Assembly (NCBI RefSeq): GCF_000311845.1
Contig: NZ_HE978574.1
Span: forward strand, 455,532-501,764
Length of the DNA: 46,233 nt
Source: Enorma massiliensis phI
GTDB taxonomy: Bacteria; Actinomycetota; Coriobacteriia; Coriobacteriales; Coriobacteriaceae
Direction of reading: 5' to 3'
Part shown: one piece after another, positions 3,709-42,426 of the stretch
Numbering within the stretch: position 1 is the first letter of the stretch
Layout of the letters: every line of letters starts with the position of its first letter
Position numbers and translations under genes: made by a program
The notes under the pieces: model-generated
What the model was told of the DNA's origin: nothing
The model's database searches: none
What the model saw: the letters and a program-made list of their open reading frames with translations, nothing else

Positions 3709-3852
3709 CAAAACTTTCGGATATCAACGGTTATTATTGGATGTGTCGAGTACGCACCCGAAAACCATGCTTGTTTCCGCTGGTAAACGCGATCTGGAAA
3801 TCGTCTATACTCGGCGGCTCGGAAAACAACCGTTGATATCCGGAAGTTTTTG
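3709..3852. repeat. Nested inverted-repeat element H1 (144 bp)
   Basis: Outer arms 3709-3733 and 3828-3852 (left core GGATATCAACGGTT) are inverted repeats with few mismatches. Inside, after 13 bp on each side, sit TCGAGTA (3746-3752) and TACTCGG (3808-3814), separated by exactly 55 bp. The architecture is shared with elements at 7304, 23970, 32011 and 42279, but the outer arm sequence here is its own type. It lies between ilvC and the exporter gene. Short open frames on both strands are by-products of the palindrome. Confidence 0.8.
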
Positions 3853-4028
3853 TCTGATGGGTGCACGGCAGGCGTCTCGCGGAGCGCGTTTGCGCCATTG
3901 CTCGCGGCGGGATGTTTCGGAAATGTTGCCGTGCCTCCAAGGCCAACGCCAGAGCCTCACTTTGCTACAATCGCGAACCGTTTGTTGGGTATGGCGAGCG
4001 CCCGAATAGCAGGGAGAGGGGGCGGACG

Positions 4029-5306
4029 ATGGAAAAGTGCGAAGAAGCGGTTGCCGCTGAGATCACATCCGCTGCTGCCGCAACCGAGTCGTCTGCAGTA
4101 CGCGGTGCGGCAGCGTGCGCAGCTTCCCCGCAGAGCGGCTCCATGACGGCGCGGCAGTGGCTTGCGCTTGCGGGTCTCACCTGCTCGGCCTTCGTATTCA
4201 ACACCTCGGAGTTCATGCCCATCGGTCTTTTGAGCAGCATCGCCGGCGGTTTCGGCCTTACCGAGGCGCAGGCTGGCATGATGACCTCGATCTATGCATG
4301 GGCGGTCATGGCGCTCTCGTTGCCTCTTATGGTGTTCGCTTCGCGCTTCGAGTTCAAGCGGCTGCTGCTCACGGTAATCGCGCTGTTTACGGCGGGCCAG
4401 TTCGCCTGCGCTGTGGCTCCCACGTTCGAGCTGCTCGTTACAGCGCGCCTGCTCGTTGCCTGCGCGCACGCGATCTTCTGGTCGATTGCCTCGGTCATGG
4501 CGACGCGGGCAGTCGCGCCGGAGTATGGGTCGCTTGCGCTCAGCATGGTCGCGACGGGAACGTCGGTCGCCATGGTGTTCGGCCTGCCCCTTGGTCGTGC
4601 GATCGGCTTGGCAGTGGGCTGGCGCATGACGTTTGCCTGCGTGGGCGTGGTGGGTGCAGCTCTCGCAGTCTACATGGCGCTCATCTTTCCGCGCATTCCC
4701 GCTGGCGAGCGTTTCGGACTGCGTCAGCTGCCTGGTCTCTTCCGCAACCGTGCGCTCCTGACGGTCTATGTGAGCACGTTGCTCGTGGCGACCGGCTATT
4801 ACACGGCGTACAGCTACATCGACCCGTATCTTGCGCAGGTCGCACGCCTCGACGCCGGTACCGCCACCATGGCGCTCACGGTTTTCGGCGCTGCCGGGCT
4901 CGCAGGGAGCCTTCTGTTCTCGCGTGCCTACGACGCGCACCGGCTTCCGTTCTTGGGTACGGCGCTCGCGGGGCTTTCGGCAGCGCTGCTCCTGTTGAAT
5001 GTTGCGGCACCGTTTGTAGCAGGCATATTCGGTATGCTCGCGCTGTGGGGAGCGTGCAACACGGCGTTCGGTATCGCGTTCCAGGCCGAGATCATTCGCT
5101 ACACGCGACCGGACGAGGCTTCCGTGGCGGTCGCGCTATACTCGGGGATCTTCAATTTGGGGATTGGTTCTGGGTCGTTTTTTGGCGGCATGGTGAGTAC
5201 GGCGTTTTCGCTGTCGAGCATTGGGCTTGCAGGCGGTGTGCTTGCAGCTGTGGGTTCCGTCGTCTGCCTGGTGGGACTGGCGCGCGCGGGACGTACTGCG
5301 GAATAG
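4029..5306 (+). CDS. MFS transporter, SotB/sugar-efflux-like (DHA1 family)
   Basis: Predicted 12-helix inner-membrane exporter driven by proton exchange. The stretches FNTSEFMPIGLLSSIA, SIYAWAVMALSLPLM, ACAHAIFWSIASV and TGTSVAMVFGLPLGR align with the SotB/AraJ group of sugar and drug exporters. The true substrate is unknown. ATG 4029 gives 425 residues, with a GGGAGAGGGGG stretch upstream and an Ala-rich N-terminal tail of about 38 residues before the first helix. An earlier in-frame ATG at 3861 starts next to element H1 and adds a non-homologous leader, and MTARQW about 38 codons further on is also possible. It is transcribed in the ilv direction but separated by two palindromes, so it is probably its own unit. 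Confidence 0.88.
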   Translation: MEKCEEAVAAEITSAAAATESSAVRGAAACAASPQSGSMTARQWLALAGLTCSAFVFNTSEFMPIGLLSSIAGGFGLTEAQAGMMTSIYAWAVMALSLPLMVFASRFEFKRLLLTVIALFTAGQFACAVAPTFELLVTARLLVACAHAIFWSIASVMATRAVAPEYGSLALSMVATGTSVAMVFGLPLGRAIGLAVGWRMTFACVGVVGAALAVYMALIFPRIPAGERFGLRQLPGLFRNRALLTVYVSTLLVATGYYTAYSYIDPYLAQVARLDAGTATMALTVFGAAGLAGSLLFSRAYDAHRLPFLGTALAGLSAALLLLNVAAPFVAGIFGMLALWGACNTAFGIAFQAEIIRYTRPDEASVAVALYSGIFNLGIGSGSFFGGMVSTAFSLSSIGLAGGVLAAVGSVVCLVGLARAGRTAE

Positions 5307-5344
5307 CCAGGACAGGACTGCCGTCTCGCTCGCACGGGACGGTA

Positions 5345-5374
5345 ATGTTAAAAACCCCTGGGGTGATTTTACAT
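5345..5374. terminator. Palindrome between convergent MFS and ybaK genes
   Basis: Imperfect palindrome with arms ATGTTAAAAACCCC and GGGGTGATTTTACAT around a single T. It resembles the palindrome at 3629-3659 in size, ends (ATGT/ACAT) and CCCC-N-GGGG centre. Its position between convergent stops suggests a bidirectional transcription stop. Confidence 0.5.
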
Positions 5375-5395
5375 GGGGTCGTTTTGCACGTCGCG

Positions 5396-5866
5396 CTAGG
5401 CCGGTAGCTTGCACACGTCGACCCAGGTACAGGGTGCGCAGAGCTCTTCGAGTTCGTTCGGCGTGAGCTCGATGGCGCTGTTCGCGCTGCCGCAGGCGGG
5501 GAAGACGGTTTCGAAGCGGCGGAGCGTCGCGTCGAGGTAGATGTCGCAGCCGTCGTTCACGGCGAAGGGGCATACGCCGCCGACGGCGTGGCCGATGAGC
5601 TGCTCGGCTTCCTCTGCCTTGAGCATCTTCGCCTTGGTGTGAAACTGCGCTTTGTACTTCTGATTGTCAATGCGCGCATCTCCCGCGGCAACGATGAGCG
5701 CCACGCGGTCGCTCACGTGAAACGAGAGCGTTTTCGCGATGCGCTCCGGTTCCACGCCCGCCGCCTGGGCGGCAAGTTCGACGGTGGCACTCGAAACTTC
5801 GAATTCCAAGATGCGATCTGCCATGTCATGTTCGGCTAAATACGCCCTGACCTTTTCGATTGCCAT
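5396..5866 (-). CDS. YbaK/EbsC family aminoacyl-tRNA deacylase
   Basis: Small (156-residue) editing-domain protein that in characterised relatives hydrolyses mischarged tRNA such as Cys-tRNA(Pro). Family hallmarks visible are LEFEVSSATVELAAQAAGVEPERIAKTL near the N-terminus, the conserved Lys in the DNQKYK region, and VGGVCPFAV in the second half. I chose MAIEKVRAYL (ATG 5866) because homology begins there. A 23-residue upstream extension in the same frame (to 5935) has no family similarity, although the site before 5866 is only GGGG-like. Monocistronic and convergent with the MFS gene. Confidence 0.92.
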   Translation of the reverse strand: MAIEKVRAYLAEHDMADRILEFEVSSATVELAAQAAGVEPERIAKTLSFHVSDRVALIVAAGDARIDNQKYKAQFHTKAKMLKAEEAEQLIGHAVGGVCPFAVNDGCDIYLDATLRRFETVFPACGSANSAIELTPNELEELCAPCTWVDVCKLPA

Positions 5867-6182
5867 GGGTAACCCCGTTTTCCAGAATGAGTTCGCTATC
5901 TTCTTAGCATATCGCTTGCAAGGGCTTCCGTGCACCTTTTCGCTATGGTCTTGCGCAGCCCTTTTGAGAGCGCTTCACGCGCTAAAGCCCGAAGCGCCTC
6001 GCGCTCCCTTTCGCGACGGCAGCGCACATCTGGACACTCCCTGTTTCTCTTCTTACCAAACCGTAAGCCACACGTAAGCAAAATCGATGGTGCGTCCGGC
6101 GTCTACCTGTAAAAATGGCTGGCAACGTAGGCAATAGGGCATAGCGCTGCGGTGCAAGTGCGATTTTGAACACGGAGTAGCC
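5867..6182. other. 316-bp intergenic region without a convincing gene
   Basis: Separates the divergent ybaK and VanZ-RDD genes and presumably holds both promoters. A TTGCAA at about 5918 on the minus strand is a possible -35 for ybaK, but no good -10 partner was seen. The short open frames here have no recognisable features. Confidence 0.5.
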
Positions 6183-7181
6183 ATGGGCATGATCGAGCGA
6201 TTCATAAACGGATACAGCGAGAACTTCATGCTCGCGGTGGGCTTATGGCCGCTCGCGGCTACGGCGCTCACCTTGCCTATTTTGGCGTATCTCTACCATC
6301 GCGATGGGCGCCTCAAATTCGTTTCGGTGGTATCGACCTATCTCGCAGTGCTCTACCTGCTTGGCCTCGGTTGTTTTACCCTCTACCCGCTGCCGTCGGG
6401 AGATTCCGGCCTGGGCATCACGTACGGTGTGCCATGGCAACTAAACCCCTTGGCGTGTATAGGCGATTTCGCGCGCGAGGGCGTATCGACGATTCCGCAG
6501 ATTGCGTTTAACGTGGTGTTTTTCGTGCCCCTCGGGTTCATCGCTGGGCGCCTTCTGCGCTGGGGGTTTGGGGCTTCGGTGGCGGCGGGGCTCGTGGCTT
6601 CGCTTTGCATCGAGCTTGCGCAGGGCACGGGGTTGTTCGGAATTTATCCGTACGCGTACCGCACCGCCGATGTCAACGACCTCATGTACAACACGCTTGG
6701 CGCGGCGATTGGCTGGTGGTGCGCAGCGCAGCTTGGGCGCGTGCTGCCACCGGGCGCGCTGGCAAATGCCAGCGATATCACCCATGGACCGGGGTTCGTG
6801 CGCCGCTGTGTGGCGTTCTGGCTCGATAGCCTCCTTATGGGGCTGATCGTCATCGTGGCGACCACGATGCTCACGATGCTATTCGAGAACGTGCCGGGCG
6901 GGGATCGCTTGGCGCGAGCGCCCTGGATTCTCGTCGTGTCGGTTGCGACGTTCCTGCTGGTTGAAGGCGTGCTTCCATGGTTGCATGGTGGGTCCACGCC
7001 GGGAGGCAGCTTCGTGCGCATGACGTGCGAAACCAGAGAGCGCGAGGGGCTCGGGCGCGGGGTGTTCTACGCGGCGCGTCTTGCGGTGCTGGGCATGAGC
7101 TATTGTTTCTTCCCGTTCGCATGGCCGCTGCTGGCGCTTTACTATTTCGTCCGCCGCCGCATGCCGTACGACGAGCTCTGA
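6183..7181 (+). CDS. VanZ-like domain fused to an RDD domain, membrane protein
   Basis: 332-residue integral membrane protein. Residues about 15-190 form a VanZ-like domain with several helices and the family-type segments NVVFFVPLGF and YRTADVNDLMYNTLGAAIGW. VanZ of the vancomycin cluster gives low-level teicoplanin resistance. Residues about 205-325 match the RDD family, with the Arg-containing RRCVAFWLDSLL at its start and the GGSTPGGSFVRM loop. The function of the fusion is unknown, and an envelope or small-molecule role is only inference. ATG 6183 has GGAG 5 nt upstream, and ATG 6189 is an alternative. Monocistronic and followed by element H2. Confidence 0.85.
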   Translation: MGMIERFINGYSENFMLAVGLWPLAATALTLPILAYLYHRDGRLKFVSVVSTYLAVLYLLGLGCFTLYPLPSGDSGLGITYGVPWQLNPLACIGDFAREGVSTIPQIAFNVVFFVPLGFIAGRLLRWGFGASVAAGLVASLCIELAQGTGLFGIYPYAYRTADVNDLMYNTLGAAIGWWCAAQLGRVLPPGALANASDITHGPGFVRRCVAFWLDSLLMGLIVIVATTMLTMLFENVPGGDRLARAPWILVVSVATFLLVEGVLPWLHGGSTPGGSFVRMTCETREREGLGRGVFYAARLAVLGMSYCFFPFAWPLLALYYFVRRRMPYDEL

Positions 7182-7303
7182 CCTGACCTAGGAAGGATCA
7201 ATGGGGGGCTGCCCTTCATAAGAGCTGGGAGGCGCAGGCCTTTCTGGCGCGCCGCACGGCCCGCGTTTGTCGGTAGGGACGGATTTCTGGCGGGCCTTCG
7301 AAT

Positions 7304-7444
7304 GTTCGAGGCTCGAGTCGGAAGGTTTTTCGTGACCCGCCGAGTAGAGCGCCCCGCCGGGAAGACGCGACCTGCGATTTTGTTGGCGTAAAAACGGGGT
7401 CTACTCGGGGTATCCAGAAAAACCTTCCGATTCGAGCCTCGAAC
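7304..7444. repeat. Nested inverted-repeat element H2 (141 bp)
   Basis: Outer arms 7304-7330 and 7418-7444 pair over 27 bp with one mismatch (start GTTCGAGGCTCGAG, end GGAAGGTTTTT). Nine bp inside each arm lie CCGAGTAG (7340-7347) and CTACTCGG (7401-7408), with 55 bp between the CCGAGTA and TACTCGG cores. The outer arms are the same as in H3 at 23970, and the 55-bp interior is mostly different. Located between convergent genes. Confidence 0.85.
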
Positions 7445-7492
7445 TTGTTCGTTTTGAGCGGGACGTCACCCGAAGGTGCGGTACGCATGCGT

Positions 7493-7514
7493 GCCAACAG
7501 GGGTTTTGTTGACC
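7493..7514. repeat. CCAACAGGGGTTTTGTTGA segment shared with the interior of H3
   Basis: The 19-mer CCAACAGGGGTTTTGTTGA lies about 50 bp outside H2 here, but inside the loop of H3 at about 24033-24052. It can form a small CAACA/TGTTG hairpin. This may be a remnant of a further element copy or a separate insertion. Confidence 0.45.
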
Positions 7515-7651
7515 CCCGGGGTGGCCAGCCGTACCGGCTTCCAAAAGGTCCCTATTCGCGGCACGAACACCCCGTGTGGGCATCAAGACATCGGTGGGGC
7601 GCGGGGATGCGCGACAAGCGTCGCGAGCGGGCGGTTTCTGGAGTGGTAAAG

Positions 7652-8227
7652 CTAGAGGTTGCCCTGGATGCGGTTTTTGATGAGGGCGAAGCACTCGCGG
7701 GCGAGGTTCACGGGAAGATTTTCGGGCGTGGAGGCGGCGGGAACGCCCCAGACTCGTTGAAACCCCTGTTTGCGAGCGATGAGCAGGGAGCGATAAAGAT
7801 GGAAGTCGTTTGTCACGATACCTACGCTCCGCTTTCGGAGTCCAGGCATGAGTTGAGCGGATAGCGAGAGGTTTTCGGCTGTGGTGGTCGAGGCGCTCTC
7901 CTGAATGATGCGCTCGCTGTCGACGCCGCGGTCCGCGAGCCAGCATGCCATCGCAGCCGCTTCGCTAACGGGTTCGTCGGAGCCCTGGCCGCCGGATACG
8001 ATGGCGATGGCGGTTGGGTGCTCGGCAAGATAGGAGCGCGCCGCTTCGAGCCGATAGCGCAGCGCGCGCGTGGGCAGCCCGTCGGGCCGGACCATGGCGC
8101 CGAGTACGATGAGGTACTCAAGATCTTCGGGCGGGGTGCTGCGGCCCGCGCGCATGATGATTATGCTTGCAGCGCAATAGGCGAGCACAACGGCCAGGAG
8201 CGCAGCCAGCAGAAAGAGCGTTGTCAC
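7652..8227 (-). CDS. YdcF/SanA-type DUF218 membrane-anchored protein
   Basis: 191-residue protein with one N-terminal membrane helix (residues about 2-25), then a DUF218 domain. Visible features are LEYLIVLGAMV, the LRYRLEAA helix, IVSGGQGSDEPVSEA with the conserved acidic residues, ESASTTTAENL, and VTNDFHLYRS with its His. The family is linked to envelope or polysaccharide functions but its biochemistry is unsettled. I prefer GTG 8227 because CGGAGG sits 5 nt upstream and the helix starts at once. An ATG at 8257 and longer versions run into a low-complexity 9-bp tandem repeat. Divergent from the ATPase gene at 8445. Confidence 0.85.
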   Translation of the reverse strand: MTTLFLLAALLAVVLAYCAASIIIMRAGRSTPPEDLEYLIVLGAMVRPDGLPTRALRYRLEAARSYLAEHPTAIAIVSGGQGSDEPVSEAAAMACWLADRGVDSERIIQESASTTTAENLSLSAQLMPGLRKRSVGIVTNDFHLYRSLLIARKQGFQRVWGVPAASTPENLPVNLARECFALIKNRIQGNL

Positions 8228-8314
8228 GGTCACCTCCGTTTCTCGGGATGACTCCATGGTACCCATGCGCGGTTGCTTGCCAACCGAGGCCGGGGGCAGG
8301 TGTGGTGGGGGCGG

Positions 8315-8368
8315 GCGGTGCACGCGGTGTGCGCGGTGTGCGCGGTGTGCGCGGTGCGTGCGGTGTGT
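8315..8368. repeat. Six 9-bp tandem repeats (GCGGTGTGC)
   Basis: Six contiguous units of 9 bp, three of them identical GCGGTGTGC and the rest one to three changes away. They lie in the divergent intergenic region between the ydcF-like gene and the ATPase gene. Copy number could vary by slippage and alter promoter spacing for either gene. Confidence 0.85.
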
Positions 8369-8444
8369 CTGCGGGCGCTCCTTCGCCCACAAGCAGCGTC
8401 TCGGACACCTTGCTACAATCGGATGAGCTAGCAAAGGGGGCGGC

Positions 8445-10268
8445 ATGAAGACAGACCGGGACTTGGAGCGCCAGCTCGCATCAATCGATCGGCGCGGATA
8501 TCCGGCATACAAAGGCCTGCGCGGAACATACGATTTCGGTGATTTCGAGCTGGATATCGCCCACGTACAGGGGGATCCGTTCGCCGCGCCCTCTCAACTT
8601 GCTGTATATGTTCCAGGCGATGTTTCCGGGCTTCCGGCATGTTGCCGCGATGCCGCGCATAGGCGCACGGCGACGGAGGACCTACTCGTGCGGCGGTTCT
8701 CAAAGGAGGCGGCTCAGGCGAGCTTCAAGGTGGGGGGCTCGGGCAAGAGCGGGTTTATCGGAACAAGCAATCCGGGTCCCGAGATACTTGCGCGGTCGGC
8801 CTGCGAGATCGCGCCGGATGGCGCGGTGATGCTGCGCTTCGAGGCGGGTCTCCCGGCGCATGGTCGCACCATCGATGCACGCGCTGCAGCGCGTATGCTG
8901 CTGGACCTCATCCCGGTTTGTGTGGAGCGCGCGCTCATGTTAGACGACGCTGGGCGGCGTGCGGCTCAGAAGGCAGCGGAATTGGCCGACGACCAGCGGG
9001 CAGTCCGCTCTGCGATGCGGGAGCGGGACCTCGTGGCCTTTGTTGCGGACGGCTCGGTCCTGCCACGGTCGAGCGGTGTCTCGGCGAAGCCGCTTGCGGG
9101 CGCTCGGCCCTTCACCTCTCCCGAAAGTATGCGCGTGACGCTCGAGCTGCCCCACCGCGGCCGTGTGCGCGGCATGGGCATTCGCCGGGGCATCACCCTC
9201 ATCGTGGGCGGTGGCTACCATGGCAAGTCGACTCTGCTCAAAGCGCTGCAAGAGGGCGTATACGACCATATTGCGGGCGATGGGCGCGAACTTGTGGCAA
9301 CCGATGAGACGGCGATGAAGCTGCGCGCGGAAGACAGTCGCGTCGTGCATGCGGTCGATATCTCCCCGTTCATAAACAACCTTCCAGATGGTCGCGATAC
9401 GCGCTCGTTCAGCACGGAAGACGCAAGTGGAAGCACCTCGCAGGCGGCGTCGACCGTGGAGGCCCTCGAGGCCGGCGCTCGGACGCTGCTGATCGATGAA
9501 GACACATCGGCAACGAATTTCATGGTGCGCGACGCGCTCATGGAGGCGGTGGTCGCGGGGGAGCACGAGCCCATCACGCCGTTCGTCGAGCGCGTGCGCG
9601 CCCTTTGGGAGCGGCACGGCGTGAGCTGCGTGCTCGTGATGGGAAGCTCGGGAGCGTTTTTCCCGGTGGCAGATAGCGTTATTCAGATGGACGCCTACGA
9701 GGCAAACGATATTACGGAGCGCGTACGGGCTGTGCTTGCCGATGCGCGGTTGGCGGGCACGCACCCGGAGGCACCCGGCCTGGGCGTTTCGGCGGGTGAG
9801 GCGAGCGAGGCGGGCGAGACCTCCGCTTCATCGTCATCGGATCAAGATGCCCCGGCATCGCGTCCGCTCGAGCTGGGTGGAAGGCTCGAGCGCCGCTCGA
9901 CGGGGCGGCCCGGGCGTCGTGGTCGAGCAAGGGGAGGCGACGGTGCTGGAACCGCTCGGCACGAGCATCTCAAGGTCCGCGGGCGCGGTCGTGACGGGTT
10001 TACTGTTGGCTCGTACGACGCAGATCTGCGCTTGGTCGAGCAGCTCGTGGATGCCGAGCAGTCCGCGGCTCTTGCCCAGATGGTGCGCGTGGTGCTCGAG
10101 CATGGGCTGCTCGATGGCATGCGCGCGCTACGGGATGTGGTAGACGAGGCCTTCCGTGTTCTTGACGAGCAGGGTTGGGAGGCGCTTTCGCCTTACGGAG
10201 ATGCTGCCTGCGGTCTGGCGCGCCCTCGCCCGTGCGAGCTCTTCGCCGCCCTTAACCGCCTGCGCTGA
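8445..10268 (+). CDS. Predicted ATPase of the ABC class (COG3044)
   Basis: 607-residue cytoplasmic P-loop protein of the COG3044 family, which is not a transporter ATPase. The Walker A motif GGGYHGKST is at 255-263, a long family-specific block contains AEDSRVVHAVDISPFINNLP and FSTEDASGSTSQAA, the Walker B motif LLIDED has D351-E352, and TSATNFMVRD and EPITPFVERVR follow. The Trypanosoma homologue MRB1590 is an RNA-editing-associated, RNA-binding ATPase. The bacterial role is undefined. Residues about 440-525 form a Glu/Ser- then Arg/Gly-rich linker (GRRGRARGG), compatible with nucleic-acid contact. ATG 8445 follows AAAGGGGG by about 5 nt. Monocistronic. Confidence 0.93.
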   Translation: MKTDRDLERQLASIDRRGYPAYKGLRGTYDFGDFELDIAHVQGDPFAAPSQLAVYVPGDVSGLPACCRDAAHRRTATEDLLVRRFSKEAAQASFKVGGSGKSGFIGTSNPGPEILARSACEIAPDGAVMLRFEAGLPAHGRTIDARAAARMLLDLIPVCVERALMLDDAGRRAAQKAAELADDQRAVRSAMRERDLVAFVADGSVLPRSSGVSAKPLAGARPFTSPESMRVTLELPHRGRVRGMGIRRGITLIVGGGYHGKSTLLKALQEGVYDHIAGDGRELVATDETAMKLRAEDSRVVHAVDISPFINNLPDGRDTRSFSTEDASGSTSQAASTVEALEAGARTLLIDEDTSATNFMVRDALMEAVVAGEHEPITPFVERVRALWERHGVSCVLVMGSSGAFFPVADSVIQMDAYEANDITERVRAVLADARLAGTHPEAPGLGVSAGEASEAGETSASSSSDQDAPASRPLELGGRLERRSTGRPGRRGRARGGDGAGTARHEHLKVRGRGRDGFTVGSYDADLRLVEQLVDAEQSAALAQMVRVVLEHGLLDGMRALRDVVDEAFRVLDEQGWEALSPYGDAACGLARPRPCELFAALNRLR

Positions 10269-10285
10269 ATGGGCAATGGCCGTTT

Positions 10286-10316
10286 TGACAATTCAATACC
10301 GGGTGTTGGCGTTTCA
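10286..10316. repeat. 31-bp palindrome family, copy R1 (degenerate left half)
   Basis: Right half CCGGGTGTTGGCGTTTCA matches the copies at 23801, 42036, 42108 and 45019, and the left half is degenerate (TGACAATTCAATA). It lies between convergent genes. Confidence 0.6.
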
Positions 10317-10383
10317 TAACGGGATTTTGGAGAGCCGATTGGCCGCTCGACACCAGGTAATGCGTTGTCATTTGACCGTGCCA

Positions 10384-10429
10384 TGCCCGGCGCCGAGCTG
10401 CCATTCTGCCCGGCGCCGAGCCGCCATCT
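10384..10429. repeat. Two tandem 23-bp units in an intergenic gap
   Basis: Units 10384-10406 and 10407-10429 both begin TGCCCGGCGCCGAGC and end with a CGCCAT or TGCCAT segment. They lie just before the stop of the XRE-membrane gene and could contribute a GGCGCC-rich hairpin between convergent genes. Confidence 0.6.
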
Positions 10430-10461
10430 TAATTCCGGTGCCGGCGCCATTGCCCTAGAAC

Positions 10462-13579: not shown

Positions 13580-13580
13580 C

Positions 13581-15248: not shown

Positions 15249-16214
15249 CTATCGCCAGCCGTAACGGTCGCGCATGGCCTCGGCACGACCCTTGGCGAGC
15301 GGGATCTGCGTTTCGCGTGCGTCGGCGAGGGTCAAGTTGAAACTGTTCCGGGTAAAGCGCTCGACCTTCGCCACCTTCTGCACGTTCACGATGTAGGACC
15401 GGTGGCAGCGGAAGAACCCGAATCGCTCGAGCTCCGCTTCGAGTTCGTCGAGCGTCATGCTCACGGGATAGAGTTCTCCGCGTACGCTCGCGAAGTTCTG
15501 GCGGTTCACGCTCTCCACGAAATCGACCTCGCGCGGGTCGAAGAGGAGCGTCGCGCCGTCCATGCGGGCCGGCACCTTGAACACATGCACCTCGTCCCCG
15601 GCATAGAACGCCTCGTCGGGCTCTTCGGGATCGGACCCGATGGCAGTCTTGGCAGGTAGAAGGCGCCCGCCCTCTTCGTAATACGCGGTGCCGGGCATGA
15701 GGAGCGCCTCGCGGAGCGGTTCGCCCGCGGTGATGAGGATGCCGCCCGCGTCGGCTACGGCGCCCATCCATGCGGTGACGACGCCGCGCGTAGCGGGGGT
15801 GATGTTCGCGAGGGGGCGCTCGCAGAACACGACCTCCGGCTCGAAGAGGCTCATGCGAGCGAAGTTGATGAGCGCGCGCTGCTCGGGGGAGAGCTTCCTT
15901 ATCTGGGTCTTCGCAATATGTGCAAGGCCGAAGTGCGCGATGGCGTCGCTTGCCGTGACGCTGCCGCCCGCGATGCGCGAGAAGAAGGTGAGGTAGGAAC
16001 GGACGGTTTCGCGATCGAAGCCCTGGTCGGTGGCGAGGTAGAACGCGCAGCGCCGCCGCTGGTAGCGTTCGTGCACGAAGCGAGCTGCGCGGTCTACGGT
16101 CTCGCGTCCGCATTCGATATGAACGCTCGCTCCCATCTCGCCGGCAAGCAGCTCTTCCACCGAGGCATATGCGGCTCGTTGCCCGTTGTCGCGTTGCGCG
16201 GTGCTGCTCGCCAT
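15249..16214 (-). CDS. LytTR DNA-binding regulator fused to a degenerate ABC-ATPase-like domain
   Basis: 321 residues. The C-terminal part (about 221-321) is a LytTR domain: LFDPREVDFVESVNRQN, FFRCHRSYIVNVQKV and FTRNSFNLTL are typical. The N-terminal 190 residues look like an ABC nucleotide-binding domain without Walker A. There is a Q-loop-like FYLATDQGFDRETVRSYLTF (58-76), a signature-like LSPEQRALINFARMSLFEP (108-126), a Walker-B-like PEVVFCE with Cys for the Asp, and ILITAGEP where the H-loop His is missing. It is thus probably catalytically dead and senses or docks with the exporter. ATG 16214 is preferred because AGGAAGG lies about 6 nt upstream, and ATG 16220 is too close to it. Divergent from the permease at 16269 by 54 bp. 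Confidence 0.88.
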   Translation of the reverse strand: MASSTAQRDNGQRAAYASVEELLAGEMGASVHIECGRETVDRAARFVHERYQRRRCAFYLATDQGFDRETVRSYLTFFSRIAGGSVTASDAIAHFGLAHIAKTQIRKLSPEQRALINFARMSLFEPEVVFCERPLANITPATRGVVTAWMGAVADAGGILITAGEPLREALLMPGTAYYEEGGRLLPAKTAIGSDPEEPDEAFYAGDEVHVFKVPARMDGATLLFDPREVDFVESVNRQNFASVRGELYPVSMTLDELEAELERFGFFRCHRSYIVNVQKVAKVERFTRNSFNLTLADARETQIPLAKGRAEAMRDRYGWR

Positions 16215-23969: not shown

Positions 23970-24110
23970 GTTCGAGGCTCGAGTCGGAAGGTTTTTGCCG
24001 ATGGGCCGAGTAGCCGGCTGTAATGCGCAGCTGCCAACAGGGGTTTTGTTGATTGTGCGGTCGTGCCTACTCGGAGGTTCGCAAAAAACCTTCCGACTCG
24101 AGCTTCGAAC
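23970..24110. repeat. Nested inverted-repeat element H3 (141 bp)
   Basis: Outer arms 23970-23996 and 24084-24110 pair over 27 bp with one mismatch and have the H2 sequence. CCGAGTA (24006-24012) and TACTCGG (24068-24074) sit 9 bp inside the arms and enclose 55 bp, the same geometry as H2. The interior differs from H2 and contains CCAACAGGGGTTTTGTTGA. It lies between the yxeA-like stop and the response-regulator promoter. Confidence 0.85.
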
Positions 24111-32010: not shown

Positions 32011-32158
32011 GATTGCAACTTTTGGGCACTTTATCGAGAGTGTCCCGAGTATAAGCCGGGTTTGCCAATGGCCATCAACCGTTCTACCAGCGCTTTTCTT
32101 TCGGGCCATTTTGCTTGTACTTGGCGGCGCGCACGTTAAGTGCCCAAAAGTTGAAACC
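32011..32158. repeat. Nested inverted-repeat element H4 (148 bp)
   Basis: Outer arms 32011-32031 and 32138-32158 pair over 21 bp with two mismatches (core AACTTTTGGGCACTT). After 13 bp on each side come CCGAGTA (32045-32051) and TACTTGG (32118-32124), enclosing exactly 66 bp. Same arm family and geometry as H5 at 42279. Lies between the DUF6440 gene and the MerR gene. Confidence 0.83.
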
Positions 32159-34334: not shown

Positions 34335-34356
34335 GTCGCGGGTGGCTTTACGACGG

Positions 34357-34707: not shown

Positions 34708-34727
34708 GGCAGTTCCTTTCAGTCAAG

Positions 34728-35433: not shown

Positions 35434-35436
35434 AAC

Positions 35437-37362: not shown

Positions 37363-37419
37363 GAGGCCCTGCCCCGGCTTCTATCAATTGCTTTTGTATG
37401 CGGATGATAACACGCTGCG

Positions 37420-37728
37420 CTATTTCAGCGGGCCCTGAAACAGCTCTTGGTGCGACCCCATGCGCACGAGCCTGATAACAGGGTTGGAGCGGTGAGGCAT
37501 GAATAGGACAAGGACATCAACCATGCCGTCGGCGAGATGGAACTCCATGTGCCCGTTGTAGTTTCCTCCCGGATTGGCAAGCTGGTGAAGCCGGTACATT
37601 GCGGGAAGCGTTCCCGTGGCGGCAAGTTCTCGAAGAGCGGCTCTGAGTTCCGATTTTAGAGCAGGGTGTTTTCGCATCACTTGCCTATAGTCGGCAATAA
37701 ATTGCGGCTCAGGTTTCAGCTCGAACAT
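37420..37728 (-). CDS. YafQ-like RelE/ParE-superfamily mRNA interferase toxin
   Basis: 102 residues, normal YafQ size. The family features seen are the N-terminal KPEPQFIADYRQVMRKHPAL helix, His-containing YRLHQLANPGGNYNGHMEFH, the beta strands VDVLVLFM, and RMGSHQELF at the C-terminus with its His. Expected to cleave mRNA on the ribosome when free of the antitoxin. It starts 2 nt after the antitoxin stop, so it is co-translated with it. No strong SD of its own is visible. Confidence 0.9.
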   Translation of the reverse strand: MFELKPEPQFIADYRQVMRKHPALKSELRAALRELAATGTLPAMYRLHQLANPGGNYNGHMEFHLADGMVDVLVLFMPHRSNPVIRLVRMGSHQELFQGPLK

Positions 37729-37730
37729 GC

Positions 37731-38015
37731 TTACGCCTCGTCAAGGTAAGCGAGAAGGTCATCGACGTCGGTGAAAGTCGGCGTATCATCGGGAATGATG
37801 CCGAGTTCCCTTGCTTCGGCTGCTATCATTGCGCGACGTGTTGCCTCGTTTGGCGCGGGATCGGGCGCTTCGATATCGAATGGAATGCGGCGCTTGATGA
37901 TGAGCTGGCGGGCAGCAAGATTGAAGTACCCGCTGAGCGAAAGACCAAGGGTGTCGAGGATTTCCGTTGTTTCTTGCTTGACGGCATCATCCAAAGTAAT
38001 AGTTGTCGTTGCCAT
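37731..38015 (-). CDS. RelB/DinJ-type antitoxin
   Basis: 94 residues. The N-terminal ribbon-helix-helix (TTTITLDDAVKQETTEILDTLGLSLSGYFNLAARQLI) binds DNA, and the acidic C-terminal half should wrap the toxin. ATG 38015 has AGAGGTG upstream, and an extension to 38060 lies within the operator region and is unlikely. AT-rich palindromes upstream fit autorepression by the toxin-antitoxin complex. Confidence 0.92.
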   Translation of the reverse strand: MATTTITLDDAVKQETTEILDTLGLSLSGYFNLAARQLIIKRRIPFDIEAPDPAPNEATRRAMIAAEARELGIIPDDTPTFTDVDDLLAYLDEA

Positions 38016-38027
38016 GGCAATCACCTC

Positions 38028-38078
38028 TGGTATATAGAAGATATATTGAATATACCTCAATCATATGTATATATACAT
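38028..38078. promoter_or_regulatory. Toxin-antitoxin promoter/operator palindromes
   Basis: ATGTATATATACAT (38065-38078) is a perfect 14-bp palindrome. GGTATAT and ATATACC (38029-38055) form a second, wider inverted repeat containing ATATTGAATAT. This AT-rich island contrasts sharply with the GC-rich chromosome and precedes the antitoxin start by 13-60 bp. Confidence 0.65.
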
Positions 38079-38117
38079 CACTTCTGAATTTCAGTGAGAG
38101 ATTAATGGATCCCATTA

Positions 38118-38132
38118 TTGACCAATGCTCAA
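38118..38132. promoter_or_regulatory. TetR operator upstream of its own gene
   Basis: TTGACCAATGCTCAA is a 15-bp inverted repeat with TTGA/TCAA ends. It recurs with two changes at 38812-38826 upstream of the methyltransferase gene, so one regulator probably binds both. Confidence 0.65.
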
Positions 38133-38170
38133 TCAAGGACTACCATGAGGCCTGACAAGGAGGCGATGGT

Positions 38171-38764
38171 ATGGCCCGAACGGTTAAAGATCCCGAGGAG
38201 CGCAGACGCGAGCTTTTGGCGTGTGCCATGCGGCTGTTTGCCGAGAAAGGCTATGATAACGTGTCGGTTCGTGCGGTCGCGCGGGAGGCAGGCGTGGCAT
38301 CGGGGCTTGCGTACCACTACTTCGATTCCAAGCAGGCGCTCTTCGATGCGGCGATTGAGGAATACGCACGTCAGTGCGCGGAACGGTTCTGCTCGATTTT
38401 TTCCGACCGCTCGCTTTCGCTGGATGAGCAGCTTGACCTAGCCTTCGACCTGGGAACTAAGAGGGAGGCGTTTCCGTATGCCGATTTCTTCCATGCGAGC
38501 GAGCACGGTGCGCTTCACGAGCGGCTCTCTCTCGGCATCTGCGAAGCGGTGCGGCCCAGCCTGACCGCCGCGCTCGAGCGCGATGCGGCAACACGCGGCA
38601 TGTCGGCGCCCGATGCCGAGATGCTTGCCGGGATGCTCGTATACGGAAGCATCGGGCTTGCGTCGGATGGGCACGAGTTGGGTGAGCAGACGAGACGGGC
38701 AGCGCGCCGCTACGTAGCGGCCCTTATAAAGGAGTTCCGGCACATCGGCGAGCGCAAAGGATAG
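38171..38764 (+). CDS. TetR-family repressor next to methyltransferase gene
   Basis: 197 residues. The N-terminal HTH is RRRELLACAMRLFAEKGYDN followed by VSVRAVAREAGVASGLAYHYF and SKQALFDAAI. The rest is the ligand-binding helical domain, with no family-level ligand recognised. ATG 38171 lies 8-10 nt after GGAGG. It is flanked by two copies of the same palindrome and followed by an intrinsic terminator, so it is an independent unit controlling itself and the next gene. Confidence 0.93.
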   Translation: MARTVKDPEERRRELLACAMRLFAEKGYDNVSVRAVAREAGVASGLAYHYFDSKQALFDAAIEEYARQCAERFCSIFSDRSLSLDEQLDLAFDLGTKREAFPYADFFHASEHGALHERLSLGICEAVRPSLTAALERDAATRGMSAPDAEMLAGMLVYGSIGLASDGHELGEQTRRAARRYVAALIKEFRHIGERKG

Positions 38765-38771
38765 GAGATTT

Positions 38772-38800
38772 GCCCGAGTCCTTAGGCTTGGGCTTTTCTT
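38772..38800 (+). terminator. Intrinsic terminator of the TetR gene
   Basis: GCCCGAG-CC pairs with GG-CTTGGGC around a TTA loop and is followed by TTTTCTT. Eight bp after the TetR stop. Confidence 0.75.
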
Positions 38801-38811
38801 GCACGTAACAA

Positions 38812-38826
38812 TTGAGCAATGTTCAA
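38812..38826. promoter_or_regulatory. TetR operator upstream of the methyltransferase gene
   Basis: TTGAGCAATGTTCAA matches the site at 38118 in 13 of 15 positions. It lies 16 bp before the methyltransferase start and just upstream of its ribosome site. Confidence 0.65.
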
Positions 38827-38841
38827 CAGAAAGGATGAGAG

Positions 38842-39648
38842 ATGGACGAGGGTATCGACAAGCAAGCGGGCGAGAGCGGGGCAGAGGTCTCGGGACAGCT
38901 CGACGCGCGCGCGGAGAAGGGCGAAATGCCTGCCCCGCGGCGGTCCAGCATGCACGGGTGCAGGGGAGAAGCGCCGGCCCCGCGGCGGCTCAACGTGCAC
39001 GGGCGCAGGGGCAGCAAGCCCGATTCGGAGCAGCTCAAAGCTCGTTCAAAAGCGGCTTTTGACGAGCAGGCGCCGATATACGACGAGGGCATGCAAGGGG
39101 ACCATGCCCGTGCGCTCTATCCCTGTATTCTCGATGAGGCGCACCGAGCTCTGGAAGGCATCCCCGCCCCCAGCGTGCTGGACGTGGGCTGTGGGACCGG
39201 GATGCTGTCCGAGCAGCTGCTAAGCGTATTCCCTTCCTGCCACCTTACCGGCATCGATCTTTCGCCTGCCATGGTAGAGCGTGCGCGAGCGCGCCTTGCG
39301 GGCAGGGCAGAGGTCCGCGAGGCCGATGCGGAGCGTCTGCCCTTTCATGATGGAGTCTTCGACCTTGTGGTATGCAACGATTCGTTCCATCACTATCCCG
39401 ATCCAGATCGCGCGGCGTTTCAGATGTGGCGCGTTCTCAGAAAAGGCGGGGCGCTGGTACTGGGCGACGTGTGGCAGCCAGCGCCCGCACGCGCGGTGAT
39501 GAATGCCTGGATGCCCCTCTCTCACGAGGGGGATGTGCGCATATACTCGGAGACGGAGCTTCGCGCGATTCTGGGAACATGGTTCCAGCGAGTGCGCTGG
39601 AGCCGGATTGGGCTCACGGGGTGCCTTGTGGTCGCAAGCAAGGGCTGA
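38842..39648 (+). CDS. Class I SAM-dependent methyltransferase
   Basis: 268 residues. The fold is shown by motif I VLDVGCGTGMLSEQL, motif II with acidic LTGIDLS, EADAERLPF, and the motif IV stretch DLVVCNDSFHHY, as in UbiE/MenG-like enzymes. The substrate is unknown. The N-terminal 65 residues hold two copies of a 15-residue unit (PAPRRSSMHGCRGEA, then PAPRRLNVHGRRGSK) from a 45-bp DNA duplication, and are not part of the fold. ATG 38842 has AGAAAGGA upstream. Probably repressed by the adjacent TetR. Confidence 0.9.
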   Translation: MDEGIDKQAGESGAEVSGQLDARAEKGEMPAPRRSSMHGCRGEAPAPRRLNVHGRRGSKPDSEQLKARSKAAFDEQAPIYDEGMQGDHARALYPCILDEAHRALEGIPAPSVLDVGCGTGMLSEQLLSVFPSCHLTGIDLSPAMVERARARLAGRAEVREADAERLPFHDGVFDLVVCNDSFHHYPDPDRAAFQMWRVLRKGGALVLGDVWQPAPARAVMNAWMPLSHEGDVRIYSETELRAILGTWFQRVRWSRIGLTGCLVVASKG

Positions 39649-39695
39649 ATGCCTGAACTGCGGAACAATCGACCATGTGCGAGCATGTTTCGCCT

Positions 39696-40232
39696 TCACG
39701 CTCCAAGATAGTCGAGGACCGGTTGCAGGTAAGCGCGGTTCGTGCCGTCGAATCCTTGCTTCATGGACTCGAGGGCAAAGGCGATGCGCGGATCGGTTTC
39801 AGCTGCTTTGGCCTGCATGCGGAAGAATGCCCGCATGGCCAGCTTGTCGAGCGTGCAAAGCCGGTCAAAATCAAAGCCGCCCTGGCAATAGAAGTGCTTG
39901 AGCGCGGAATACCGCTCGTGGGGAAAGGCGCGCTCAAACGCCTCGTCGGTATCGCTTTGCGGCCAGTCTTCGCTCGGCATGGGGTACGCGCCCACGCCGA
40001 CGACGACATAGCGTTTGCCCGGCTGCGCATCCATGAGGCCGCGCAGCCATTTTGCGCCCTTGAGCCCGCCGGCATGGAACCAGCTAAGGAAGACGAGCGT
40101 ATCGGCACCGGACGCTGCTGCCTCGTCACGCCTCTCGAATGGAAGGGCTTCCGTGCCGAGCGACTCAGCGAGCCATCGAGCATAGGTCCTGGTGTACCCC
40201 GTTTGGGAGCAGTAGACGACGGCGGTGATCAT
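39696..40232 (-). CDS. Flavodoxin-domain protein
   Basis: 178 residues. The FMN-phosphate loop is SQTGYTRTYA near the N-terminus, followed by LVFLSWFHAGGLKGAKWL and VVVGVGAYPM, typical of flavodoxins/HemG-like proteins. It should carry electrons in the cytoplasm. AAAGGAG lies 6 nt before ATG 40232. The TetR gene immediately upstream (11-bp gap) is on the same strand, so the two form an operon. Confidence 0.92.
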   Translation of the reverse strand: MITAVVYCSQTGYTRTYARWLAESLGTEALPFERRDEAAASGADTLVFLSWFHAGGLKGAKWLRGLMDAQPGKRYVVVGVGAYPMPSEDWPQSDTDEAFERAFPHERYSALKHFYCQGGFDFDRLCTLDKLAMRAFFRMQAKAAETDPRIAFALESMKQGFDGTNRAYLQPVLDYLGA

Positions 40233-40243
40233 GCGTGCTCCTT

Positions 40244-40864
40244 TCAGATGCGGTGCTCACTTTGGAATGCGTCGAGGTGCTTGGCGATAAACCGACGGGC
40301 GTCGTCCCACGGCATCTCCTCTGAGAGCGCTAGGAACACCGCTCCGTGGAATTGCCTAGCGGCAAGCTCCGTATCGCAGGGGCCGAGGTATCCGCGTGCG
40401 ATGAGCTGGGCGAAGATCGCCTCCTGCAGCTGGATTGGCCTCGTGATGAATATCGTGCGGTAGAGCTGAAAGATGCTTGGGTCGGCGTGTCGCTCCGCTT
40501 CGAGGATGTGTCGCAGCTTGATGATGGCCGGGTCTGAAAAGAACGGTTCGTAGCTGGCGAGGACGGTTGAGAGCAGTCGGTTGGAGTCGTCGGTTGCATA
40601 TGCTGCCGCGTTGTCCTCGGGATGAGCGAGGGCCTGGTGGCTGCGCAGCAGGTTGGTGAGCCGCTCGAGCTGCAACGAGACCGTCGCGTCGAACAGGTCG
40701 CGTTTGCTGGAAAAATGGTTGTAGAGAGAAGCATCCTTCATCCCCGCCCCATGGGCGATGTCGCGCATGGTCGAGGCGGTGTAGCCTTTTTCTGCGAATA
40801 CGTCGAGCGCCCGCTCGCAGATAAGGGCCTTGGTGTCGCGCGTTGGTCCCGCTGGTCGCCCCAT
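40244..40864 (-). CDS. TetR-family repressor in operon with flavodoxin gene
   Basis: 206 residues. HTH: ALDVFAEKGYTASTMRDIAHGAGMKDASLYNHF followed by SSKRDLFDATV. The C-terminal domain shows the TetR_C-like IIKLRHILEAERHADPSIFQLY stretch seen in regulators next to flavodoxin genes. ATG 40864 follows AAAGGAG by 6 nt. An inverted repeat just upstream fits autoregulation. Confidence 0.93.
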   Translation of the reverse strand: MGRPAGPTRDTKALICERALDVFAEKGYTASTMRDIAHGAGMKDASLYNHFSSKRDLFDATVSLQLERLTNLLRSHQALAHPEDNAAAYATDDSNRLLSTVLASYEPFFSDPAIIKLRHILEAERHADPSIFQLYRTIFITRPIQLQEAIFAQLIARGYLGPCDTELAARQFHGAVFLALSEEMPWDDARRFIAKHLDAFQSEHRI

Positions 40865-40878
40865 GGCGCTCCTTTCTT

Positions 40879-40900
40879 AAAACTATCAATTACTAGTTTA
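40879..40900. promoter_or_regulatory. Candidate TetR operator of the tetR-flavodoxin operon
   Basis: AAAACTA and TAGTTTA are inverted arms around an 8-bp AT-rich centre (TCAATTAC), 15 bp before the TetR start. The AT-rich stretch also probably holds the promoter. Confidence 0.55.
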
Positions 40901-41027
40901 TTAGGAAAGGCGCGTGAGTCAAGGGAATGTCGGGGTAGGTGCGCAAAGTCTTGCTAGGCGGTGCGCATGGCCGAGCGGCGCCCCTAGCAGAGAGGGGCCT
41001 ATGGCCGAGCGGGTCCCATCGTCGGAC

Positions 41028-41112
41028 GGCGCGTATGGCAGAGTGGCCTATGTGGCCGGGTGGCGCGCGTGCCCGAGTGGCCTAAGTAGCCGAGCGGCTC
41101 GCATGGCCGATC
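41028..41112. repeat. Five 17-bp tandem repeats (GGC-CG-ATGGCCGAGT)
   Basis: Five contiguous 17-bp units with starts at 41028, 41045, 41062, 41079 and 41096. Each begins GG and ends in CCGAGT, CCGAGC or a close variant. Looser copies extend upstream to about 40965. No coding signal seen. Confidence 0.7.
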
Positions 41113-41117
41113 GGGTT

Positions 41118-41209
41118 CACAAACTTGACGAGTGGTGCGCACAAACTTGCTGAAGTTACGCATTTCCAGGCACTCAGCAAGTTTGTGCGCAGCACTCGAC
41201 AAGTTTTTG
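41118..41209. repeat. Long hairpin with 36-bp arms
   Basis: Arms 41118-41153 and 41174-41209 match at 33 of 36 positions. Each arm carries CAAACTTG twice, so the hairpin has internal direct repeats too. The loop is 20 nt. It follows directly on the 17-bp repeats. The following 41210-41417 stretch holds nothing recognised. Confidence 0.8.
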
Positions 41210-41417
41210 CGCGCTCCTGCTTGGGATGGGGCTGCGACATGAGCCGGCTCGCTGCCGGGACGGCACTGGTAGCCGGCCCGCTACCGGAGGCGGCATCGCA
41301 GGCTGCGCATAACCGGCAGAGAGCACGGTACCGGTTAGGTTTCCCTCGGCATCGCCACCAACCGGCGCTCCATCGGCAATGCGAACGTTTATGGGGCTGA
41401 GTGCAAAACGATCGAGT

Positions 41418-42221
41418 CTATGAACCGAGCGCGATACCGCCGAGCCAGCCCCAGCGTGGTTCGGCCATGACGCCGTATACCGACGCCCACAGCTCGAACG
41501 GGGCGTCTACGAGGCGCCCGTCTGTGCAATGCCGTACACGGCTGTCGCCAAGATAAAGACCAACATGGCCCCATGAGCGTCCACCCGCGCCATAGGGGTG
41601 TGCGGGTACGGCGACGATCATACCCACGCGTAGACATCGCGTGTCGGAGCTTTGGCACCAGGCGTGATAGAGGGCGGACGCATCGCCGGTAACCACACCG
41701 AGCCCCATGCGAAGGAAGACGCGCTCAACCCAGGCGGCGCATTGGTCCGCCTCTGCTGCGGGCGTGGCGTGGGCAAGGGCAACGAGGTCGCGCTGACGTG
41801 CAGAGGCATCCATGAGCGCTTGCGGCTTGCGTTCGGGATCGACGGCGCGCCACGCCGGTTGGTGGTAGATGGTGAGCGGTTCTGCCTCTATTACGTTTGG
41901 CTGCTGTGCGTCACGCGTGTGTTCGAAGTGCTGGTGGCTACGGTTGCGGTTGCGATGGGTGCCATCAGGTGCTTGCATGAGCAGCCCGCGCTCTGCGAGC
42001 ATGGCGAGCGTCCTTCGGCGTAAAGCCTCCTCACGTGAATCGCGCACACCCGGTGTTGGCGTTTCATCGTTCTCCCCGCGGCGTACATCATGCGTTAGCG
42101 CGTTGCCTGAATCGTTCACACCCGGTGTTGGCGTTTCATCAGCCGGCAGGGGCTTGCACATGGGGGTCTCGGGCCGGTGTGTGGCGGGATGTTGCGGCAT
42201 GGCCCTCGCTTCGCTCGACAT
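41418..42221 (-). CDS. Hypothetical protein with NlpC/P60-CHAP-like C-terminal domain
   Basis: Up to 267 residues. The last 115 look like a papain-like amidase/peptidase core: Cys in EADQCAAWVERVF, a MIVAVPAHPYGAGGRSWGHVGLYLGD segment with the catalytic His, then CTDGRLVDAPF. No signal peptide or membrane helix is visible, so it is probably cytoplasmic or exported by an unknown route. The N-terminal 75 residues contain two copies of a peptide close to DETPTPGVNDS, encoded by palindromes R4 and R3. The true start may therefore lie after them, such as ATG 42003 (MLAERGLL) with AAGGA upstream. Confidence 0.6.
   Translation of the reverse strand: MSSEARAMPQHPATHRPETPMCKPLPADETPTPGVNDSGNALTHDVRRGENDETPTPGVRDSREEALRRRTLAMLAERGLLMQAPDGTHRNRNRSHQHFEHTRDAQQPNVIEAEPLTIYHQPAWRAVDPERKPQALMDASARQRDLVALAHATPAAEADQCAAWVERVFLRMGLGVVTGDASALYHAWCQSSDTRCLRVGMIVAVPAHPYGAGGRSWGHVGLYLGDSRVRHCTDGRLVDAPFELWASVYGVMAEPRWGWLGGIALGS
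42036..42066. repeat. 31-bp palindrome family, copy R3, within a coding frame
   Basis: TGAATCGCGCACACC on the left and GGTGTTGGCGTTTCA on the right. On the minus strand it is translated as ETPTPGVRDS within the NlpC/P60-like gene. Confidence 0.7.
42108..42138. repeat. 31-bp palindrome family, copy R4, within a coding frame
   Basis: Same core as R3 (TGAATCGTTCACACC and GGTGTTGGCGTTTCA), 72 bp away, an interval divisible by three, so both are read in the same frame as TPTPGV peptides. Confidence 0.7.
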
Positions 42222-42278
42222 TCGGGGCGTGAGCCCGGGTTAACGGAACGGTTCTCACTTTATCTTCTGGCCGATCGG

Positions 42279-42426
42279 GATTGCAACTTTTGGGCACTTT
42301 GGGGCGGGGGGTCCGGGTAGCCATGCCTCGGCAGGGAGGGCGCCGGCCGCCTGAGCTGCGCCTTTCTCTTCCCCTCGTTCGCCTGTACTTGCCCGCAGTG
42401 CGAGCGAGTGGCCAAAAGTTGAAATC
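42279..42426. repeat. Nested inverted-repeat element H5 (148 bp)
   Basis: Outer arms 42279-42299 and about 42407-42426 have the H4 sequence (CAACTTTTGGGCACTT) with few mismatches. The inner pair is CCGGGTA (42313-42319) and TACTTGC (42386-42392), enclosing exactly 66 bp as in H4. Lies between divergent genes. Confidence 0.8.

Follow-up and report, generated by a model that had tools for sequence, protein, structure and literature searches.

Palindromic intergenic DNA repeats of Coriobacteriales with family-specific arms around a regularly spaced inner pair and an asymmetric core

Five intergenic stretches of the window (the whole stretch of 46,233 nucleotides that was analysed) consist of nested inverted repeats, which raises the question whether such elements act as RNA or as double-stranded DNA, and whether they are mobile or fixed. 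The coordinates and outer arms assigned to H1–H5 in the initial annotation were correct in all five cases. H1 (3709..3852) is a type II element with the arms CAAAACTTTCGG-ATATCAACGGTT and carries its core on the minus strand; a second type II copy of this genome is found at C1:66465. H2 (7304..7444, arms GTTCGAGGCTCGAGTCGGAAGGTTTTT) and H3 (23970..24110) are type I elements, H4 (32011..32158) and H5 (42279..42426) are type III elements of the 66 class, and all four are read on the plus strand. The inner pair CCGAGTA/TACTCGG, proposed as common to all five, is exact in H2 (7340..7346 and 7402..7408) and H3 (24006..24012 and 24068..24074). H1 has TCGAGTA (3746..3752) and TACTCGG (3808..3814), H4 has CCGAGTA (32045..32051) and TACTTGG (32118..32124), and H5 has CCGGGTA (42313..42319) and TACTTGC (42386..42392), so that the pair is looser than first stated. 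These sites are given on the plus strand; the right site of H4 and both sites of H5 were counted from the sequence. The enclosed lengths of 55, 55, 55, 66 and 66 bp for H1 to H5 were confirmed.

The sequence enclosed by the inner pair had been described as largely unrelated between H1, H2 and H3. This description does not hold, as an asymmetric core, CCTGCGGTTTT or a variant of it, is present throughout. The core ACCTGCGGTTTT, overlooked at first, lies off-centre at a fixed distance from the inner pair. It reads CCTGCGATTTT in H2 (7371..7381, plus strand), and variants are present in H1 (CCAGCGGAAAC, 3773..3783, read on the minus strand), H3 (ACAGGGGTTTT, 24037..24047), H4 (CCAGCGCTTTT, 32087..32097, with CTA just before it) and H5 (GCTGCGCCTTT, 42355..42365), the latter three on the plus strand and all four variants with positions counted from the sequence. 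In other genomes (64 rows; L066 and L070 are the same genome, and the inverted repeat L087 1310 with gap 57 is doubtful) the best core match lies 24 bp past the left GTA in 33 of 36 gap-55 rows and 16 of 17 gap-54 rows, and 34 bp past it in all five gap-75 rows. In this genome the offset is 24 in 18 of 21 gap-55 elements and 35 in 12 of 14 gap-66 elements, with 15 of the 58 copies left out because the finder did not recover them. The extra 11 bp of the 66 class is confined to one side of the core, and in the 75 class both sides are longer by about 10 bp. The core offset is therefore nearly fixed within each spacing class, which supports phasing.

We determined how far the inner pair and its spacing extend beyond the window. 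The exact pattern CCGAGTA-N50..70-TACTCGG occurs at 6 places in the whole genome and its reversal at 1. Across 875,659 non-redundant bases, picked for containing elements, outer arms accompany 97 of 194 [GA]AGTA..TACT[CT] pairs with a gap of 20–130 bp, whereas of 381 pairs of the reversed motif 1 has arms; the inner pair with arms exceeds chance. By gap these armed pairs number 1 (53 bp), 14 (54), 64 (55), 2 (56), 1 (58), 1 (64), 1 (65), 4 (66), 1 (74), 4 (75), 2 (76) and 2 (97). Apart from the two outliers at 97, they fall into three narrow classes separated by roughly one helical turn. Taken literally, the restriction to 55 or 66 bp claimed initially fails, since there is a third class near 75 bp and there are further gaps, though in spirit it is not refuted. 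Pairs lacking arms are rare overall, with a mean of 0.87 per gap value, but they number 7 at gap 55 and peak at gap 76 with 15. Facing type III arms in the whole genome are either 109–111 bp (15 pairs) or 119–121 bp (16 pairs) apart, and no pair closer than 2 kb was found at any other distance. In the 23 type III rows of set A2, which were found by their arms, the left GTA is present in 23 of 23, and T, A and C of the right site in 23, 22 and 20. In the rows of set A3, invariance at GTA/TAC and core is given by construction because the finder demanded GTA/TAC together with the core at ≤3 mismatches. Inverted short sites around GTA/TAC lie inside the arms of every arm family recovered.

The outer arms measure about 20–27 bp; their sequence defines the family and varies between families and genomes. 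All 27 of 27 arm positions covary, with changes on both sides and almost free of G.U; the score is 0.650 and falls to 0.210 or less when the arms are slid. Between the 23 type III copies the arms are about 95% identical and the adjoining spacers 34–42%. This genome carries at least 58 copies, H1–H5 among them, nearly all intergenic and skewed to the 3’ ends of genes. Neighbouring genes are convergent in 42, co-directional in 83 and divergent in 15 cases (convergent versus divergent p 0.0005; counted for the 140 of 148 elements flanked by two called genes, and the copies are not all independent). With other arms, the core was found in 25 of 119 genomes of the class, belonging to two families. 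Two high-identity segments common to this genome and to G001 and G014 each contain an element. In viral contigs a single strict-pattern match, inside a called gene or at its edge and without an element by the finder, was taken as chance.

At matching sites the arms can differ. Among eight orthologous pairs selected from a larger set of G013 and G017 loci, arm type differs on both sides in three, one of them with the core reversed. In the arm-switched pair L244/L211 only one flank aligns; the arm-switched L245 has lost its left GTA. Across genera, elements with different arms share a site at 8 loci, after two cases of recent transfer were dropped, against about 4 expected by a rough estimate; we do not claim this excess as significant.

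Taken together, we consider the family to be non-coding palindromic DNA repeats of Coriobacteriales, about 120–175 bp long including the arms, acting as double-stranded DNA and likeliest MITE-like, a reading to which we assign a probability of about 0.5. The elements are small, non-coding, present in many copies and bear terminal inverted repeats, as do MITEs. A protein, probably a dimer of dimers, would bind the family-specific arms, and the inner sites and the core may be bound on one face of the DNA, either by a second domain or by a shared host factor, so that about 140 bp would be folded into a compact complex. The likeliest use would be mobilisation in trans of a non-autonomous MITE-like element, whose insertions may be tolerated at the 3’ ends of genes. 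Template switching between arms could keep them identical and carry a change from arm to arm, and exchange between copies could alter the arm type at a fixed site. Bridging of the inner sites by a protein on one DNA face, as proposed initially, gains support from length classes about one turn apart, the one-sided 11 bp of the 66 class, the roughly 10 bp on either side in the 75 class and missing or weak RNA signatures; no protein was identified, and such bridging is inferred. More tentatively, the elements might be modular protein-assembly sites with exchangeable specificity arms around a shared, helically phased scaffold; a resident element would swap both arms where it stands, which would let its site and its arm identity evolve independently, and this would make them a new class of bacterial DNA element.

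No transposase was found for the elements. An autonomous relative with the same ends was not seen for type III, types I and II being less fully covered; with all but 2 of the 77 type III arm matches in the whole genome falling inside the 58 elements, no autonomous copy with type III arms is seen in this genome. One of these two stray matches adjoins a masked stretch. Solo arms at C1:862655 and C2:153290 were considered as parts of an autonomous transposon, but only half copies or remnants were seen there. Target duplications for the 141-bp unit were not seen by eye in the flanks of this genome or in the G013/G017 pairs examined, and no empty site was found, the G013/G017 intergenic regions being mosaics of repeat families with alignments too broken. 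Neither among genes between three close element pairs nor among recurrent neighbour genes (first 25 clusters; five records left out of the BLAST) does a clear transposase family recur. One neighbour cluster (L170, L191, L099) resembles a helix-turn-helix protein. Because transposase, empty site and target duplication were not found, mobility and the binding protein are inferred.

A fixed, non-mobile chromosomal binding site for a host protein, such as a nucleoid organiser, an insulator or a centromere-like site whose phased sites build a complex, is rather doubtful. It would fit the core conserved across two families (the 24 rows examined for this include several duplicates), the few copies between divergent genes and the 18 of 26 G013 loci that match a G017 element locus, for which reason movement must be slow, if any; 8 of 26 G013 and 6 of 24 G017 loci are without a match, some loci overlapping and many contigs being small. 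Arms, however, turn over between and within genomes and differ at matching sites, unlike a host site with a single binder. In addition, a larger repeat bounded by inverted ends of its own (counted at ≤5 mismatches) encloses 13 of the 24 copies in the 66 class, and by eye the copies of this genome look unevenly spread. The right end of a larger repeat adjoins H5.

We also assessed whether the elements act as a long RNA hairpin, that is as bidirectional terminator, RNase III substrate or small RNA. The predicted folds of H1–H5 are strong (z -3.0 to -11.5), several type I copies have A-run/T-run flanks, copies are biased to gene 3’ ends, and a 2021 study reports terminators predicted in 230 of 250 palindromic RNA candidates (PMC8040213). 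On the transcript strand, arm mismatches lean to G.T over A.C (18:9, p 0.12). Relative to the core strand, however, there is no clear G.U bias (G.T:A.C 28:21 in the arms, 35:36 in the inner part). The core is oriented towards the gene in 50:33 cases (p 0.08; 19:15 in this genome, hand-counted). Interior pairing amounts to 37.1% compared to 36.5% after shuffling, without an interior stem, and on both strands the interior folds slightly better than its mononucleotide shuffles, with z of -0.31 (s.e. 0.11) and -0.30 (mismatch and folding tests used 97 of 107 elements). Across genomes, inner columns 39 and 103 vary independently of each other (Fisher p 0.49); columns 37/114 and 38/113 partly covary, with G.U pairs, in the type III copies of this genome, which are related. 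Covarying stems tolerating G.U, expected of a structured RNA, were thus not found, the arms being almost without G.U and the interior without a stem. Rfam gave nothing in the window at gathering score, four weak matches at E ≤10 and, in 20 relative loci, five matches at E ≤0.5, none of them on elements; a comparison with Collinsella-1 (RF01700) likewise gave no covariance-model match at the elements. One-sided 11-bp steps are hard to explain for a loop. Since interior pairing, covariation at testable inner columns and a clear G.U bias are missing and the length steps are one-sided, function as double-stranded DNA is favoured. The folded-RNA alternative is weakened to an unlikely one, and the data point to a DNA-borne protein complex rather than RNA.

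REPINs mobilised by a RAYT (Y1 HUH) transposase were appealing, given species-specific inverted arms in many intergenic copies and three Y1_Tnp matches (frames of 258–329 aa) beside three arm types in this genome, and are very improbable on linkage and co-occurrence: 20 Y1-gene regions of 6–8.5 kb (R2 up to E 0.1; finder) and 12 shorter Y1 loci (finder) contain no element, and G013, G017, G023 and G048 carry elements without a Y1_Tnp (PF01797) match at E 0.001, other genomes having both. One Y1 locus bears short repeats of its own.

REPIN/RAYT systems and BIMEs share inverted repeat pairs, lineage-specific arms and many intergenic copies; the elements described here have longer arms, are unlinked to RAYT genes and occur without them, and have a core common to all recovered arm families, while we know of no core shared across species among REPINs. 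Unlike in classical MITEs, the interior is conserved across different arm families, and neither autonomous partner nor target duplication was seen. In P1-type parS and lambda attP two kinds of protein site stand in fixed helical phase around a bend, and in plasmid P1 parS the phased sites build a complex. The present elements would resemble them in this arrangement and differ in being many dispersed copies with arms exchangeable between families. Correia/NEMIS elements of Neisseria are not known to have more than one arm type. They measure about 105–155 bp with terminal inverted repeats of about 24 bp and two length forms, the long one almost only intergenic and with a host-factor (IHF) site inside (PMC2229807), and are thus similar in size, arm length, intergenic long form, length forms and internal site. 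Their length forms differ by 50 bp, whereas the steps here are about one helical turn. For the Neisseria elements TA ends, target duplications and also an empty site have been reported (PMC2229807), none of which was found here. They are not known to contain a phase-locked inner pair.

In agreement with the initial annotation, no described family with this layout was found in Rfam or the open-access literature searched. The repeats, abundant in common gut bacteria of the Collinsella type, are apparently unnamed as far as searched. As a natural series in which a single machine comes in three helical settings and with numerous arm specificities, they make protein–DNA phasing, arm recognition and arm switching directly testable. 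Elements may also break assemblies: contig C118 of G013, the one case seen, starts within the right arm of an element.

All five positions assigned to the intergenic elements H1 to H5 in the initial annotation agree with the window sequence. The inner CCGAGTA/TACTCGG pair, claimed there for all five, is exact in H2 and H3 and occurs as variants in H1, H4 and H5. In the E. massiliensis genome type II arms (H1) represent a small type with one further copy (C1:66465), type I arms (H2/H3) account for 11 and type III arms (H4/H5) for 45 copies in a table of 58 elements. Copy number is at least 58, with a diverged type I copy (locus L202) found later and lying outside the table. One of the 58 elements overlaps a called gene and three have an unresolved neighbor. 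Immediately 3' of H2 (7445-7568) lies an apparent decayed second copy, whose center (7492-7512) is identical to that of H3 across 21 bases.

We conclude that the repeat family is real and widespread, with an unusual architecture at the DNA level; a bound protein, mobility and benefit are putative. No description of it was found among the titles and abstract openings listed by searches of one open-access library. The Collinsella-1 motif carries the number RF01700 (PMC2864571), and a term search of the paper on GTAG-tagged REPs (PMC3733652) found none of the coriobacterial genus names sought.

Spacing was assessed using the type III arm 15-mer with at most one mismatch, which matched 77 times in the 2.28 Mb of the genome, 75 of them within the 58 elements, while the reversed pattern, serving as control in the same search, did not match at all. 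Facing arms lie 109 (2), 110 (12), 111 (1), 119 (1) or 121 bp (15) apart and at no other distance below 2 kb. Since this search used arms only, it is independent of the inner pair. An arms-first search of all fetched DNA (875,659 non-redundant bases, picked for containing elements) gave 174 inverted repeats. A GTA/TAC pair is present in 99, enclosing gaps of 53–58 (81), 64–66 (8), 74–76 (8), 85 (1) and 101 bp (1); the 75 lacking the pair include, among 25 listed, both degenerate copies and repeats of other kinds. Other genomes supplied 64 rows, with one genome represented twice and one doubtful row among them; here the gap is 55 (36), 54 (17) or 75 bp (5), with 53, 56, 57, 58, 74 and 76 bp occurring once each. 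Additional loci showed 55 bp in 22 of 24 rows (duplicates among them) and 56 and 57 bp in the others, a distribution partly by construction as gap-55 elements were the basis of search model R2. Elements of the 66 class were observed in the E. massiliensis genome and those of the 75 class in G006 and G018.

Counted from GTA, the start of the core CCTGCGGTTTT lies mostly at 24 bp in the 55 class, at 35 bp in the 66 class and at 34 bp in the 75 class. The 66 class is therefore extended by 11 bp on the left only, the 75 class by about 10 bp on both sides. In an alignment of 38 elements (A3) strong positions are A40-A43, C68-G71, T76-T78 and T99-T102; because the finder demanded GTA/TAC and a core with at most three mismatches, only positions beyond those are independent evidence. 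Bases immediately 5' of the core are similar to CTAC, the right inner site; since only about every second row has CTA there (at least 18 of 38), we do not claim a third copy of the inner site.

We weighed double-stranded DNA against a folded RNA. All 27 arm pairs examined carry changes on both sides with 84.6% of cells paired, and the covariation score of the whole structure is 0.650 versus 0.103–0.210 for slid versions. G.U is rare in mid-arm, and on the core strand G.T and A.C mismatches stand at 28:21 in the arms and 35:36 at the inner sites. Interior pairing does not exceed that of shuffled sequences. Mean folding z of the interior is −0.31 (s.e. 0.11) for the core strand and −0.30 for its complement; inner columns 39/103 show no covariation and behave independently. 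Counting against the DNA reading are inner columns 37/114 and 38/113, where type III taken by itself has compensating as well as G.U-type changes, and an excess of G.T over A.C on the transcript strand (18:9, p 0.12).

Model R1, which is biased towards type III arms, matched in 20 of 40 relatives. R2, at E 1e-6, found matches in 25 of the 119 genomes of the class and none in the other 94; of the 25, the window's family contributes 19 and a second family (f5) 6. G039, from a third family, matched R1, but the finder recovered none of its copies, so that its membership is weak. A strict core pattern returned Collinsella provencensis, Collinsella massiliensis and a Coriobacteriaceae MAG as named GTDB matches, E. 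massiliensis phI itself being possibly outside that search. The C. massiliensis record and G002, a genome of the window's genus, are identical across 2,243 bp. Two element-bearing segments of the E. massiliensis genome are 97.8% identical to G001 (1,826 bp) and 94.4% to G014 (875 bp), sequence similarity that suggests recent transfer. Elements with different arms also stand side by side in twos or threes (L078 1491-2221 in G006, L084/L100 in G013/G017, L259 in G126). Long hairpins in G002 (L087 1320-1400 and 2998-3077), with microRNA-model matches under the cut-off, are probably another repeat of that genome.

G013 and G017, 96% identical across one 3.1-kb locus, were compared at matching element loci, which exist in G017 for 18 of 26 G013 element loci. 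Among eight pairs examined the arm family is kept in five and differs on both arms in three (L245/L205, L244/L211 and L220/L207). L245 has lost the left GTA; in L244/L211 core direction is also reversed and only one flank aligns well. Polymerase template switching is described as homogenizing arms and inverting spacers (PMC8604942), and such switching would account for equal arms and flipped cores here. Intergenic regions at loci L208-L246 of both genomes are mosaics of more palindromic repeats, for example with CGCCACG-TTCCGACAA and GACGAAAGTTCATGAACTTTCG.

Thirteen of 24 66-class copies in the E. massiliensis genome sit within a unit of about 231–253 bp with inverted ends like CTAGGGAAACGCTGATT, counted with at most five mismatches at each end (about 231 bp at C1:508539, L102, and C2:269103, L052). 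We regard this unit as a separate, mobile-looking repeat, of which CTAG may be the target duplication. Its right end also adjoins H5.

A Y1_Tnp (RAYT-like) transposase as required trans factor was rejected, because elements occur in four genomes without a match at E 0.001 (G013, G017, G023 and G048). A Y1_Tnp match is present in 22 of 40 genomes, and no element lay near Y1 genes in 20 regions examined. One RAYT-like Y1 gene has the same neighbors in many relatives (L142-L148, L151, L155, L158) and is apparently inherited vertically. Genes between three close element pairs and the first 25 clusters of recurrent neighbor genes offered no other candidate. One Y1 locus of E. massiliensis (L139) contains short repeats with TGAGACAGTT, and 15 armless [GA]AGTA..TACT[CT] pairs with a 76-bp gap in the fetched DNA are perhaps one conserved gene in many orthologous Y1 loci.

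Gene context was determined for the 140 of 148 elements with both neighbors called by a simple codon-score method: neighboring genes are convergent for 42, co-directional for 83 and divergent for 15. Between co-directional genes the element is closer to the end of the upstream gene in 57 of 83 cases. At 15705-15796 of the window a predicted tRNA-Leu(gag) lies inside an opposite-strand reading frame scored as coding; either the tRNA or the frame is probably miscalled.
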